Source of the DNA: Dongshaea marina
GTDB lineage: Bacteria > Pseudomonadota > Gammaproteobacteria > Enterobacterales > Aeromonadaceae
Direction of reading: 5' to 3'
Length of the DNA: 64,000 nucleotides
Assembly (NCBI RefSeq): GCF_003072645.1
Contig: NZ_CP028897.1
Coordinates: forward strand, 2,307,658 to 2,371,657
The translations under genes were made by a program, and so were the position numbers. This document shows positions 42,298-48,634 of the stretch, in pieces. The notes under the pieces are model-generated. The model was not told the origin of the DNA. It worked only from the letters and a program-made list of their open reading frames with translations, and made no database searches. Position 1 is the stretch's first letter, and every line of letters starts with the position of its first letter.

Positions 42298-42472
42298 GGT
42301 GGTAGTGCTTGTTCACCTTACATAAACCTTCTTGTGGCCTTTTAGTTTTTTAGTGATGGAGCAAGCTTGCCCGGTGTTACCAAAGTTGCAACGATAGGGA
42401 GCTGATCCGTCTGTTTATGGTATACTGCTCACCCTTTGAACAATTATCTGTTTTTCCCCGTAAAGGGTCAGC

Positions 42473-42892
42473 TTATCTGATGGGCTTGAGCTCCAAACGC
42501 AACCACTCAAGTGCTGCGCTCTCGCAGGTGAAATACTCTATTTTGCGCTGGGACTCTTTAACTTTCTCCCCGTAGTGGCTCACGATCGCTTTCTGTATGT
42601 TAGTGCTTGGCAAGAAGGCTTCGCGGTATAAACCGATTTTTACCAGCTCCTGCACGGTCCAGTCAAAATACTCAGTGACATCAGGAGTGCATAGCTCCCA
42701 TTTGCGGGCATCACTCAGCATCCCCCATCGAGAGCCCTCCAAATGCTCTTTATGAATATCACACTGCTTATTAAACCACTGTGTTGCTGCTTCAAGGTTC
42801 CACGAACCAAAACCTCGTCCGATAATAATCCCCTCAGAAATATAGGACAGGTCAAATTCATAGGTCCCGTGCGCATTTTTTTGGTAGTCCAT
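42473..42892 (-). CDS. Small STAS/SpoIIAA-like protein of unknown function
   Basis: A 139-residue protein, with no signal peptide or membrane segment. The pattern of a beta-alpha SpoIIAA-like fold is suggested by SWNLEAATQWFNKQC, MLSDARKWELCTPDVTEYFDWTVQELVKIGLY and FTCESAALEWLRLE. Proteins of this kind occur near chemotaxis or stress genes, but none lies here. I do not recognise it. It is convergent with the HAD gene and starts the accessory block before the solute-binding protein. Confidence 0.6.
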   Translation of the reverse strand: MDYQKNAHGTYEFDLSYISEGIIIGRGFGSWNLEAATQWFNKQCDIHKEHLEGSRWGMLSDARKWELCTPDVTEYFDWTVQELVKIGLYREAFLPSTNIQKAIVSHYGEKVKESQRKIEYFTCESAALEWLRLELKPIR

Positions 42893-43072
42893 AATCAGCC
42901 CCTGTTAGCAAACAATGAACAGTTGAAATCACTTTTATCTATTCAAAGTTAATCAGATGTCACGACCAATGCAAAACCGCTGGGCTGCAATCGAATAGCT
43001 ACCTGACAAGTTTCCTCTTGGTGAGGACCCCTCAGCTTTCGTCTAAACTTACAGCAACACAGGCTAGAGGGC

Positions 43073-43849
43073 ATGATCTTGAGTCAACTGCTGCGATTAT
43101 TCATCCTACTGCTCCTGGTCGGAGCGCCGTTAACTTATGCAAAACCTGTTGTGAAGGCTTGCGGCCACCATGACTATGCTCCCTGGAATTGGCGAGTCGG
43201 TGATCAGATTGTCGGTGCCTGTGCCGAGGTAACTAAGACGCTTTTTGAAAAACTCGGAGTCACGGTCGATTTGAGTTACCAGGGGAACTGGCAGCAGTGT
43301 CAGAGCAAAATCAAAACCGGAGAGGTTGATGTAAACATCTGCTCTTTTATTAACAGTGAACGCCAGCAATACTCTCGCTTTATTCAGACTCCGATGGGTT
43401 ACAACGAGAATGCAGCCTTTGTAAATCAGAAGGTCCCCTTCAAATTTTCCAGATGGAGTGATTTTGATGGTCATACGGTCGGTATGGTGCAGGGAGTTAG
43501 TATTGGGCAGAAGTTTGATGATTTTCTAAGACAACACACCAAGGTTGTACGGGTGACAGATTACCGTAAGGCATTTGAGTTTCTGGCGGCCAAGCGTGTC
43601 GACTTTGTGCCGGTTGGGCGGTACAGCGGTTATGCGATGATCAAGGCTTTTAAGCTTGAAAAACAGCTTACCGATCTTCCCAAGTCAATCCTGACCGGCA
43701 AGCTTTATATCTCTATGTCTAACAAATCAAAATATTTGCATCTGCTTCCTGAGGTAGAAAAGCAGATCCAGAAACCCGGCTATTACCCCTGGCTTTCTGA
43801 GCTGCTGCAAAAGTATGCTGACGAGTATGGGGATCAGTTTGCGGAGTAG
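43073..43849 (+). CDS. Periplasmic family-3 solute-binding protein
   Basis: A 258-residue exported protein with signal peptide (LLRLFILLLLVGAPLTYA). It has the SBP_bac_3 fold: KACGHHDYAPWNW, GACAEVTKTLFEKLG, DVNICSFINSERQQYSRF, GHTVGMVQGVSIGQKFDD and FVPVGRYSGYAM. Family members bind amino acids or act as sensory ectodomains. No permease or ATPase gene adjoins, so it may be a free-standing sensor or a partner of a remote transporter. Start ATG 43073. Confidence 0.75.
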   Translation: MILSQLLRLFILLLLVGAPLTYAKPVVKACGHHDYAPWNWRVGDQIVGACAEVTKTLFEKLGVTVDLSYQGNWQQCQSKIKTGEVDVNICSFINSERQQYSRFIQTPMGYNENAAFVNQKVPFKFSRWSDFDGHTVGMVQGVSIGQKFDDFLRQHTKVVRVTDYRKAFEFLAAKRVDFVPVGRYSGYAMIKAFKLEKQLTDLPKSILTGKLYISMSNKSKYLHLLPEVEKQIQKPGYYPWLSELLQKYADEYGDQFAE

Positions 43850-43926
43850 TCCCAAAAACTTAGCCGGCGTATTCAAGATCAAGGGCTGGCTCATTTCTTT
43901 GAGGCTTACATCATTCATCAGTTGGT

Positions 43927-46173
43927 TTAGCTGGTCGGACATTCACTGATCTCTGTGGTGGTGTTGCCTGCGTCATCCTGGGTTGTATTGATACAGGTTC
44001 CCTGGTCTTTCTTTTGAGTATTTTGCTTGTCATTGCTTTTAGATAAAACCGATCTTTTTTCCCGGTTTTGTACGATCAGCTTATCTTGTGAATACAGCTC
44101 AAAACTTGGGTCCACAGGGGGAGGCTCGATGCCAAGATCAATGTAGGGATCGATAAATTGCTCTAATCCGCCACTGTTGGAGTTAAGATTACTGCGATCG
44201 GGGGCTCGCACGATAAGCCGCTTTGCAGTGATATTCGATGAGATATAGCTGATCCCTGTGAAATTACTGTAGGTGAGACCTTCTCCGTCTCTGAGCTCGA
44301 AGAGAACGGTCCCCTCACCGGCATCGATTATAGTGGCGACCGAGATCAAGGCGGGATAGGGGCTACGTTCTTCATCAATAACTCCGCTTGCTAACCTGTC
44401 ATTTGCGATCAGTGTGAGATCACCACCATCCGTGATAATTTCACCGGTTATGAGCTGAATGGCATTACCCGATTGAAATGTTAGTGAAGCTTTTACTGGA
44501 TTCGGGTTATTTACAACAATGTTGCCAGTGAAGCCTATATAGTCGCTGGCTTGTAGAGTAACAGAGACCCCCTGGTTCAGCAGGTTTTGAATATCGAGAT
44601 CCAGGATGCTGATTGACTGGTTACCCGGGTCATCTTGGTAACTGTAGTGTCCCGATGAGGGAAAAAGGATATCACTGGGGAATGCACTAATATCGATGGT
44701 TTCGGGATCCAGCAGCAGGGTCCCACCTGAACCCGGAGTTACGCGACTTAACCCAGCATCAAGCAATTTGTTGGCCGAGGATATTTCAACAAAGCCTCCT
44801 TTCATGCCTTGAGTATCAATGGATCCGAGCTGGGTCGTGTGTTGATCGGACCAGATCACCACGGCGCCACCGGAACCCGCAGATGCGGATGCATCGATTC
44901 GGCTTGCATCATTGATGAAGGTGTTGCTGGCATTTTTTAGGGCGGGCCTATCTGCAAACTGGCTTCGAAACTCAGAGTGGCGATCATTAGCAGGTGCTGG
45001 CTTTCCACCCTGAAAACTGCCACCGATCCGGATCTTACCACCTTGGGTGTGACCGGAAGCATTCAGGGTTGAACTCAGTAAACTTACAGAGTCAGCGCTA
45101 AGGTCTATCTCACCGCCTTGTGCTCTGTCACCCTTAGCCTGGTAGTTGGCTGAAGTCCGAAGCTCTTGGGTTGCATCTACCCGGATACTCCCACCACTGG
45201 CACCATCTGCATTGAGGGTGCCGCCCATGGCTACAGACTGCCCATGAACAGAGATATTTCCTCCACTGGTTTCTCGTACTCCAGCGACATCCAGAGTGCC
45301 ACCATTACTGATGTTGCCGCCTTCAAGGATTATTCTGCCATCTTGGAGGCTCAGACTGTGGGCCTGGATGATTCCTGAGTTATTAACAGCTCCCGTCATC
45401 AGCTCACGGGTAGTATCAGTGCTGAGCATAACGAAGCCACCTTCAGCCTGAATTAACCCTTTATTGTCAATAAGGGTATTGAGCCTTGCTTTGTCTACTT
45501 TTAGTTTGGCCAAACCATCTCCATAAAAATCCAGAGTGAGAGCGTCAGCAGCGCCAAGCAAAATACTGTTTTGATCTGCCCTTAGCTGACCCTCGTTACG
45601 GACAATCGGGGAGAGCAGGGCGATATGGCCTGATTTAGCTGTGATCGTTCCCTGGTTGAGTAGCTCGGCAGAAGGGTTGGTTGCTTTGAATTGATAACGC
45701 CCCTCTAAAAAAGCCTGATCACTAATATTGAGAGTTGAAGCGGTGATGGCACCTACATTGACCTGGCTGTGTGGACCAAACAGGATCCCGGAGGGGTTTA
45801 TTAGCATGACATGACCATTGGCATTCAGTCGCCCGAGTATTTGAGAGGGGCTTTGCCCTGTCACCCGGTTGAGAGCGACGCTGCCTGAGCCTGGCTGCTT
45901 AAAGGTGACCGAGGCATCCTGACCGATATTAAAGCTCTGCCAATTGGTGATAAGCTTATCGCTGTGCTGATGGATGGCCATGGCAGATCCCTGTTGAGTG
46001 ATCTGGGCAGAGCCAAATTTTACATCCGAGCCTGAGGGCAGAGCAGGGGATGCTGCTGAGGAAGTAGCAAACGCTATATTTAGGATCACAAAGAGGTAAG
46101 CCACCACCCTTCGGCGTGGTATAGCGATTGTGGTACAAGTATGAAGGTCACCATTCATAGCACGACCACACAT
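43927..46173 (-). CDS. Filamentous-haemagglutinin-type exoprotein (TpsA-like), paralogue A
   Basis: A 748-residue protein. It has a signal peptide (VVAYLFVILNIAFATSSA), a TPS secretion domain (residues about 45-260: ITNWQSFNIGQDASVTFKQ, NRVTGQSPSQILGRLNANG, LINPSGILFGPHSQVNVGAI), then beta-helix-like repeats (GGNISNGGTLDVAG, GGEIDLSADSVSLL) and a tail with FIDPYIDLGIEPP and TTTEISECPTS. TPS proteins are secreted by a partner TpsB barrel, which is not found here. It is shorter than most FHA proteins. It lies downstream of paralogue B on the same strand, 106 bp away. Confidence 0.85.
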   Translation of the reverse strand: MCGRAMNGDLHTCTTIAIPRRRVVAYLFVILNIAFATSSAASPALPSGSDVKFGSAQITQQGSAMAIHQHSDKLITNWQSFNIGQDASVTFKQPGSGSVALNRVTGQSPSQILGRLNANGHVMLINPSGILFGPHSQVNVGAITASTLNISDQAFLEGRYQFKATNPSAELLNQGTITAKSGHIALLSPIVRNEGQLRADQNSILLGAADALTLDFYGDGLAKLKVDKARLNTLIDNKGLIQAEGGFVMLSTDTTRELMTGAVNNSGIIQAHSLSLQDGRIILEGGNISNGGTLDVAGVRETSGGNISVHGQSVAMGGTLNADGASGGSIRVDATQELRTSANYQAKGDRAQGGEIDLSADSVSLLSSTLNASGHTQGGKIRIGGSFQGGKPAPANDRHSEFRSQFADRPALKNASNTFINDASRIDASASAGSGGAVVIWSDQHTTQLGSIDTQGMKGGFVEISSANKLLDAGLSRVTPGSGGTLLLDPETIDISAFPSDILFPSSGHYSYQDDPGNQSISILDLDIQNLLNQGVSVTLQASDYIGFTGNIVVNNPNPVKASLTFQSGNAIQLITGEIITDGGDLTLIANDRLASGVIDEERSPYPALISVATIIDAGEGTVLFELRDGEGLTYSNFTGISYISSNITAKRLIVRAPDRSNLNSNSGGLEQFIDPYIDLGIEPPPVDPSFELYSQDKLIVQNREKRSVLSKSNDKQNTQKKDQGTCINTTQDDAGNTTTEISECPTS

Positions 46174-46279
46174 TTACCTTGGGAGGAGCCTGTTGGTGTC
46201 ACAGTATCTCTTATGAACTACAGCTACACCTTTAATTTAAGCAGATCCGGTTTAAGTTACCGAGCTTATAGGGTTTGAT

Positions 46280-48550
46280 TTAGCTCGTTGGGCACGCACC
46301 GATCTCGGTAGTGGTATTTCCGGTATTATCCTCTTTGGTGCGGATGCATGTTTCATCTTTCTTTTGTCTTTTAGCTTCTGTTGATTTGCTTACACGGATA
46401 CTTTCAAACGAGTCTTCGTTGTGGTGTTTGAGGAGATACTCGTTTTGAGAGTGCTGCTCAAAATTGAGGTCTATATGAGGAGGCTCAATCCCTAAATCGA
46501 TATAGGGATCGATAAATGTATCAGGTACATCTGGCTCTTGCTCATCTGGCGGAGTTATTACTGTAATCGAATTTGCGATGATACTTTGTCTATCAATGAT
46601 TATGCTGCCGAAATCATTAGAGCTAAGGCCTTCCCCAGTACGGAGTTCAAAATATACGTTACCAGTTCCAGCATTGAGTGTTACGAAGCCTCCTTCCATT
46701 AAAATGATTGCCGTAAGGTGAGACTCCTTATCTGAGTCGATCACGCCACTGGTTGCATGATCGTTTGCAATAAAAGTGAGATCTCCATTATCTGAGTTGA
46801 TGCTCGCATCTATGATAATTCCGCCACCTGAATGCAGAGATAAGTTGCCCCCATCTCCATAGGGGTTATCTACATTGATGGGAGCATTCACTGTGATATT
46901 GTTACTGGCTTGTAGAATCACATCGGAGCCGCTGGCAAGCAGGGTCTGCAGCTCAATATTGTCTATCTTGCTATTCTGGCCTGAGTCTTCCGCATAACCG
47001 TATAACCCTGATTGTGGATTTGCGTTGTTACTGTTAGGAAAAAGACCGATCTCTATCTCTTTAGGATCCAATAGTAATGTCCCGCTGGGGCCAGGCATGA
47101 GCCGACTGAATTCTACATGTTGTAACTCTCTGGCAGAGGATATCTCGATAAAGCCTCCTTTCATGCCCTGAGTATCAATCGACCCCAGTTGAGTTGTTCG
47201 TTGATTAGACCAGATCACTACAGCACCACCCGAGCCATTAGATGCGGATGCATCGATTCGGCTTTCATCATTGATGAAGGTGTTGCTGGCATTTTGCAGG
47301 GGTGGGCTATCGGAAAATAACGCGCGAAACTCAGGGTGAAGATCATTGGCAGGTACAGGCTTTCCACCCTGAAAACTGCCGCCGATCCGGATCTTACCGC
47401 CTTGGGTGTGACCGGAAGCATCCAGGGTTGAATTCAGTAAACTTACAGAATCAGCGCTGAGGTCTATCTCACCGCCTTGTGCTCTGTCACCCTTAGCCTG
47501 GTAGTTGGCTGAAGTCCGAAGCTCTTGGGTTGCATCTACCCGGATACTTCCACCGCTGGCTCCATAGGCACTGAGGGTGCCGCCTGTGGTTACAGACTGC
47601 CCATGAACAGAGATATTTCCTCCACTTGACCCAACTGCTCCTGCGACATTCAGAGTGCCACTGTTACTGATATTGCCGCCTTCAAGGATTATTCTGCCAT
47701 CTTGGAGGCTCAGGCTGCGAGCCTGGATGATTCCTGAGTTATTGACAGCTCCGGTCATCAGCTCACGGGTTGTATCAGTGCTGAGCATAACCAAGCCACC
47801 ATCGGCGCTGATGACTCCTCGATTTTCAATCAGGCTATCAAGTTTTGCCTTGTCTACTTTTAGTTTGGCTAAGCCATCCCCATAAAAATCCAGGGTGAGA
47901 GCGTCAGCAGCGCCAAGCAAAATACTGTTTTGATCTGCCCTTAGTTGACCCTCGTTACGCACAATCGGGGAGAGCAGGGCGATATGGCCTGAGTGAGCGG
48001 TGATTACTCCCTGGTTGAGTAGCTCGGCAGAGGGATTGGTTGTTTTGAATTGATAACGCCCCTCTAAAAAAGCCTGATCACTAATATTGAGAGCTGAGGC
48101 GGTGATGGCACCTACATTGACCTGGCTGTGTGGACCAAACAGGATCCCGGAGGGGTTTATTAGCATGACATGACCATTGGCATTCAGTCGCCCGAGTATT
48201 TGAGAGGGGCTTTGCCCTGTCACCCGGTTGAGAGCAACGCTGCCTGAGCCTGGCTGTTTAAAGGTGACCGAGGCATCCTGACCGATACTAAAGCTCTGCC
48301 AATTAGTGATGAGCTTATCGCTGTGCTGATGGATGGTCATGGCTGACTCTTGTTGACCGATCTGAACCGTCCCCTGGATGACCTGAGGTTGTGCCGGAAG
48401 AGTCGTGGTCGGGACGGATGATGCAAGGGCGGATGCCGGGAAGAGGCACAATAGCAATACTAGTATTAAATTGCAGAAAGGCCTGGCAGAGCCTTCATCA
48501 GGAGTGAGGCTCTGAGGGAGATAAATTTGAAGATGACCATTGCGCCCCAT
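46280..48550 (-). CDS. Filamentous-haemagglutinin-type exoprotein (TpsA-like), paralogue B
   Basis: A 756-residue paralogue of the preceding protein. The TPS domain (ITNWQSFSIGQDASVTFKQ and on) and the region to about residue 470 are nearly identical to paralogue A, also at the DNA level over about 200 bases (48100-48310 against 45750-45960). The next 200 residues diverge, then the tail is again shared (FIDPYIDLGIEPPHID, TTTEIGACPTS). N-terminal signal region LILVLLLCLFPASALA. Probably transcribed first of the pair. The pattern fits duplication followed by diversification of the surface-exposed middle. Confidence 0.85.
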   Translation of the reverse strand: MGRNGHLQIYLPQSLTPDEGSARPFCNLILVLLLCLFPASALASSVPTTTLPAQPQVIQGTVQIGQQESAMTIHQHSDKLITNWQSFSIGQDASVTFKQPGSGSVALNRVTGQSPSQILGRLNANGHVMLINPSGILFGPHSQVNVGAITASALNISDQAFLEGRYQFKTTNPSAELLNQGVITAHSGHIALLSPIVRNEGQLRADQNSILLGAADALTLDFYGDGLAKLKVDKAKLDSLIENRGVISADGGLVMLSTDTTRELMTGAVNNSGIIQARSLSLQDGRIILEGGNISNSGTLNVAGAVGSSGGNISVHGQSVTTGGTLSAYGASGGSIRVDATQELRTSANYQAKGDRAQGGEIDLSADSVSLLNSTLDASGHTQGGKIRIGGSFQGGKPVPANDLHPEFRALFSDSPPLQNASNTFINDESRIDASASNGSGGAVVIWSNQRTTQLGSIDTQGMKGGFIEISSARELQHVEFSRLMPGPSGTLLLDPKEIEIGLFPNSNNANPQSGLYGYAEDSGQNSKIDNIELQTLLASGSDVILQASNNITVNAPINVDNPYGDGGNLSLHSGGGIIIDASINSDNGDLTFIANDHATSGVIDSDKESHLTAIILMEGGFVTLNAGTGNVYFELRTGEGLSSNDFGSIIIDRQSIIANSITVITPPDEQEPDVPDTFIDPYIDLGIEPPHIDLNFEQHSQNEYLLKHHNEDSFESIRVSKSTEAKRQKKDETCIRTKEDNTGNTTTEIGACPTS

Positions 48551-48634
48551 AACCAGCCTTTATTTTGACACCTTTGTTAATTACAGCATAAAAAGAGCCA
48601 GTTTATGGGGGATGAGGTATTTAGCTTCAGCCGT

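Follow-up and report, generated by a model that had tools for sequence, protein, structure and literature searches.

The occurrence of two adjacent tpsA-like genes in Dongshaea marina raises the question of how their products, with no transporter gene alongside, could reach the cell surface, and of what purpose is served by the cysteine-containing tail on which both proteins end. The window considered throughout is the whole 64,000-nucleotide stretch of contig NZ_CP028897.1 that was analysed. The genes, here called B and A, lie head to tail on the same strand with a gap of 106 bp, and both reading frames are intact:

46280..48550, minus strand: tpsA gene B, 756 aa, upstream member of the pair (open reading frame plus PF05860, E 2.2e-40)
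43927..46173, minus strand: tpsA gene A, 748 aa, downstream member of the pair (open reading frame plus PF05860, E 3.5e-42)
47648..48397, minus strand: TPS secretion domain of B, residues 52-301 (PF05860)
45289..46041, minus strand: TPS secretion domain of A, residues 45-295 (PF05860)

PF05860, the N-terminal TPS domain that marks TpsA proteins, scored above its cut-off in both, and the TpsA-like character that the earlier note had assigned to the tandem pair was thus borne out: A and B are TPS-domain exoproteins of the TpsA family, 69% identical overall. Scans for promoters and terminators at the pair gave signal no greater than in shuffled sequence, and no simple-sequence repeat hinting at phase variation was found there. 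The pair is carried on a 6.3-kb insertion (window 42298-48634) between a HAD-phosphatase gene and maf, which also holds two other genes:

43073-43849: lone SBP_bac_3 solute-binding protein gene
42473-42892: DUF7793-like gene

Apart from this insertion, the block rluC-HAD-maf-yceD-plsX is conserved. The maf gene was present in seven of eight other genomes searched and lay next to rluC and/or the HAD gene in six of those seven, with yceD and plsX on the opposite side (within the stretch retrieved). Homologues of B at E<=1e-10 were found in none of the 36 other same-family genomes searched.

Identity between A and B is unevenly distributed, reaching 88% over B residues 82-480 as against 42% over residues 481-672. 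Four-fold degenerate sites differ at 28 of 172 positions within residues 90-437 and at 63 of 88 outside, and a two-boundary change-point in these sites gave a log-likelihood gain of 39.4, compared with at most 11.9 in 200 shuffles. The dS between the genes (Nei-Gojobori) is 0.13 over residues 90-231 and 0.26 over residues 263-437, and is near or beyond saturation elsewhere, on both sides of the stretch. The stretch is not slow to mutate, because A and B each differ from a third TpsA of the genome at about 0.6 of its four-fold sites. Since protein constraint alone is insufficient to explain the contrast in four-fold sites and dS, homogenisation of residues ~90-437 by gene conversion, at which the earlier note had guessed for the N-terminal part, is well supported. 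The tract and the diverged domain beyond it are placed as follows:

47240..48283, minus strand: gene-conversion tract in B, residues ~90-437 (four-fold-site change-point, dS 0.13-0.26)
44881..45924, minus strand: gene-conversion tract in A, residues ~84-431 (four-fold-site change-point and dS)
46556..46981, minus strand: second, diverged beta domain of B, residues ~524-665 (AlphaFold model)
44206..44613, minus strand: second, diverged beta domain of A, residues ~521-656 (AlphaFold model)

The divergence of the middle, also remarked on previously, is real but is nothing special: the domain is homologous in A and B and has diverged as paralogues ordinarily do, with saturated dS. It stands out only against an N-terminal part that underwent homogenisation recently. 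The middle is the diversified domain and probably contacts ligand.

AlphaFold models of A and B (22-sequence alignments; mean pLDDT 77-78, pTM 0.79) contain a confidently modelled beta-helix between residues ~50 and ~500 and a small second beta domain at ~520-665, followed by a disordered linker. Between the two C-terminal cysteines a hairpin is modelled with low confidence (pLDDT about 45-53), its strands falling at residues 734-740/746-752 in B and 727-732/738-743 in A. By sequence, the closest solved proteins are EtpA (2e-70), HxuA and HMW1. The same three were recovered by fold search at E 1e-12 to 1e-20, with hemolysin A at 1e-3 and the FHA secretion domain at 6.5e-3, so that by both measures the TPS domain of A and B is closer to HMW1, HxuA and EtpA than to FHA or hemolysin. 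Membership of the FHA subfamily was not supported, given an FHA fold match of only E=6.5e-3 and the presence of a C-terminal cysteine pair, which A and B share with the HMW subfamily.

The tail itself is conserved in blocks rather than nearly identical throughout, so that the conserved cysteine-containing ending described at the outset holds in part:

46478..46516, minus strand: FIDPYIDLGIEPP motif of B, residues 679-691
44119..44157, minus strand: FIDPYIDLGIEPP motif of A, residues 673-685
46283..46348, minus strand: C-terminal Cys-pair tail of B, residues 735-756, with C735 and C753
43930..43995, minus strand: C-terminal Cys-pair tail of A, residues 727-748, with C727 and C745

All 13 residues of FIDPYIDLGIEPP are the same in A and B, with six of the 13 codons differing synonymously. 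Both proteins end in C-x17-CPTS, and 15 of their last 22 residues are identical, nine of these 15 being encoded by different codons. Outside the signal peptide, the cysteines of these tails are the only ones in either protein. Because the protein sequence is conserved while synonymous sites are saturated, the tail is held by purifying selection; the same saturation led to the rejection of gene conversion as the source of its similarity. The earlier note had called the tail unexplained, which no longer holds, as the literature recognises HMW-type TpsA proteins by just such an anchor, a pair of cysteines at the C-terminus. Its accompanying suggestion of a role in anchoring, or in contact with a shared partner, is supported by the match to this published anchor type.

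The search of databases for the tail that had been proposed, a scan of 84,980 species' genomes with an alignment of A, B and the third TpsA, returned 21 related loci, none with the A/B tail and only one (L030) with any terminal cysteine pair. Among B-like TpsAs elsewhere, terminal cysteine pairs occur sporadically, in about 8 of 33 complete C-termini (from C-x4-C to C-x45-C), and again none carries the A/B tail. In a TPS-domain survey of 395 genomes of the order, the top matches were mostly FHA-type and mostly without detectable similarity to B. B-like TpsAs of one family (f20; G078, G055; L114, L115) have cysteines 46 residues apart, the last of them penultimate, and tails that resemble one another, possibly another anchor variant; the two genomes carry many TpsAs. 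Clusters of short TpsAs (about 750-1,000 aa) were also indicated by search matches in a second family of the order (f27; G367, G307, G187, G234; L079-L083), and their similarity to A and B is not clear.

No TpsB gene was found among the genes of the window, as the earlier note had stated. The partner is unlinked rather than missing: with the thresholds applied, the 5.11 Mb assembly (two contigs) has three TPS-domain proteins, no more, and a single TpsB, encoded at C1:1431131, ~0.92 Mb from A and B, with POTRA_2 and ShlB domains. This TpsB and the third, giant TpsA are located as follows:

genome C1:1430400-1432500 (L001 793-2487): tpsB locus, standing alone with no adjoining TpsA
L006 6716-19001 plus L010 3-1859: giant TpsA, about 4,400 aa, with ESPR signal, FG-GAP_2 and YDG repeats

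The giant contains a segment 40% identical to B residues 515-665 and ends in ...FIPPYPQQ...C-x15-C-NSK, that is, with an F-I-x-P-Y motif before its cysteine pair. With a B-like segment and an equivalent tail in the giant, A and B look like the same protein without its two repeat arrays. Signal peptide aside, each of the three TpsAs has just two cysteines, a pair at its very C-terminus with the final cysteine at position -4, spaced C-x17-C-PTS in A and B and C-x15-C-NSK in the giant.

Co-variation of similarity suggests that the sole TpsB would be the partner of A and B. Across 16 loci with adjacent TpsA and TpsB genes, which are not fully independent, the more a TpsA resembles B, the more its neighbouring TpsB tends to resemble that of this genome (Spearman 0.70, p=0.003, n=16). 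Chitinimonas sp. BJB300 comes nearest in both respects (TpsA 52%, TpsB 49%, the latter a contig-edge fragment), and FHA-type TpsBs are mostly only 22-26% identical to the TpsB found here.

The state of the tpsB gene nevertheless raises the possibility that A and B are the TpsA remnants of a decaying system, in which an inactive TpsB leaves them unexported and degraded in the periplasm. In the assembly, tpsB is frameshifted near residue ~530, towards its C-terminus, close to a C5 run; the giant tpsA is split by two frameshifts, one of them near a G6 run; and no TpsA has an adjoining TpsB. However, a proper final barrel strand ending in F is kept in the adjacent frame after the C5 run, and both A and B have uninterrupted frames, with tails under purifying selection. 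M20-peptidase and GltS-like genes near the giant tpsA are likewise split, and because these metabolic neighbours are affected too, assembly indels are the likelier cause of the frameshifts in both tps genes. Decay of the system is therefore considered unlikely.

The reading favoured here, which we regard as probable, is that A and B are HMW-subfamily, surface-anchored TpsA adhesins (type Vb secretion) that share one unlinked TpsB. After Sec export, the N-terminal TPS domain would dock on the POTRA domains of the sole TpsB, and the chain would thread through the barrel and fold outside into a right-handed beta-helix with the small second beta domain. The last ~85 residues would stay behind. Of these, the FIDPYIDLGIEPP segment and the disordered linker would run through the barrel, and the final 22, looped by the C-x17-C disulfide, would make a periplasmic knot by which complete release is prevented and the protein is retained at the surface. 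As TpsB has no cysteine before the frameshift nor in its alternative-frame C-terminus, both cysteines of a tail disulfide would have to come from the same TpsA chain. The genome encodes two DsbB-family proteins. For A and B, outer-membrane secretion and adhesion, like disulfide formation, tail topology and surface anchoring, are thus predicted from sequence and from the behaviour of related proteins.

These relatives offer a counterpart for most of the scheme. The defining trait of the HMW subfamily is a C-terminal disulfide through which the TpsA is retained in its TpsB (PMC4873976; PMC5422565; PMC13192263). HMW1 and HMW2 of Haemophilus influenzae diverge most in their binding domain (36% identity), have a C-terminal anchor and are thought to exchange binding domains by gene conversion (PMC8262952, PMC4849778). 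Like A and B, they are paralogues with a conserved N-terminal secretion part, a cysteine-bearing C-terminal anchor (predicted in A and B) and gene conversion, and the A/B conversion tract covers much the same part of the protein as the HMW1 propiece does (residues 69-441; PMC8262952). They are about twice as large, however, and occupy two separate loci with their own B and C genes, whereas A and B are in tandem with no linked tpsB or glycosyltransferase gene; the HMW1C-type glycosyltransferase profile PF18254 had no match in the genome, control genomes being equally silent. HxuA of H. influenzae (884 aa) is likewise a beta-helix with a disordered C-terminal tail and one cysteine pair, whose presumed role is to fasten HxuA in its TpsB (PMC4873976). 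Its loop is C-x5-C followed by 23 residues (PMC4873976), compared with C-x17-C followed by three in A and B, and no haem-receptor gene adjoins the pair. EtpA of enterotoxigenic E. coli, the nearest solved relative by sequence and fold, is about twice as long (1564-residue chain) and has its own operon, etpBAC; a linked B gene of the hmw/etp operon type is absent at A and B. Export of more than one TpsA by one TpsB is known from FhaB and FhaS with the single FhaC of Bordetella (PMC5422565), although these are FHA-type and the TpsB considered here, ~0.9 Mb away, is unlinked to any TpsA.

The same comparisons could be taken to mean that A and B are released rather than anchored, the tail being a folding or maturation element whose cysteine pair merely stabilises an extracellular C-terminal hairpin. 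A cysteine pair is missing from most of the proteins closest in the TPS domain (Burkholderia, Pseudomonas, Chitinimonas), the disulfide loop is longer than that of HxuA, and EtpA is called a secreted adhesin in the title of entry 8vbb. Set against this are the lack of any further cysteine in about 700 residues of A and B or about 4,400 of the giant, the equal distance of the pair from the C-terminus in all three proteins, and the literature that ties a C-terminal cysteine pair to anchoring (PMC4873976, PMC5422565, PMC13192263), and release seems distinctly improbable. Least probable is that the tail is a periplasmic retention module cut by the LapG homologue of the genome, as in CdrA of Pseudomonas aeruginosa, a repeat-rich TpsA like the giant whose C-terminal cysteine hook is held in its TpsB (PMC7616799) and which is freed by LapG cleavage (PMC7616799, PMC5422565): a LapG-family protease is indeed encoded, but no LapG-like di-alanine motif was found in A, B or the C-terminal part of the giant, and the gene adjoins a TolC-family gene as in type I adhesin systems, which suggests a separate LapA-like adhesin system.

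L048 1324-2037: LapG-family (Peptidase_C93) gene, adjoining a TolC-family gene

Anchoring through one unlinked TpsB accounts for an apparently orphan exoprotein gene pair by a known principle. Every striking feature of A and B has a described counterpart, and the pair is ordinary but informative; unusual are the unlinked partner, the long disulfide loop, the F-I-x-P-Y motif and the tandem arrangement. The long loop and F-I-x-P-Y together provide a sequence handle for a TpsA anchor variant beyond Haemophilus and its relatives. A more speculative and rather doubtful extension is that the three TpsAs, two mini and one giant, share the TpsB through a distinct anchor class (an F-I-x-P-Y plug, then a C-x15-17-C disulfide hairpin ending four residues from the C-terminus) and compete for its pore, in which case the mix of TpsAs on the surface would be set by pore occupancy. 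D. marina would then present a natural case of one transporter with three substrates all expected to stay plugged in the pore, and A, B and the giant a direct test ground for the idea that a TpsA lodged in the pore shuts out other substrates.
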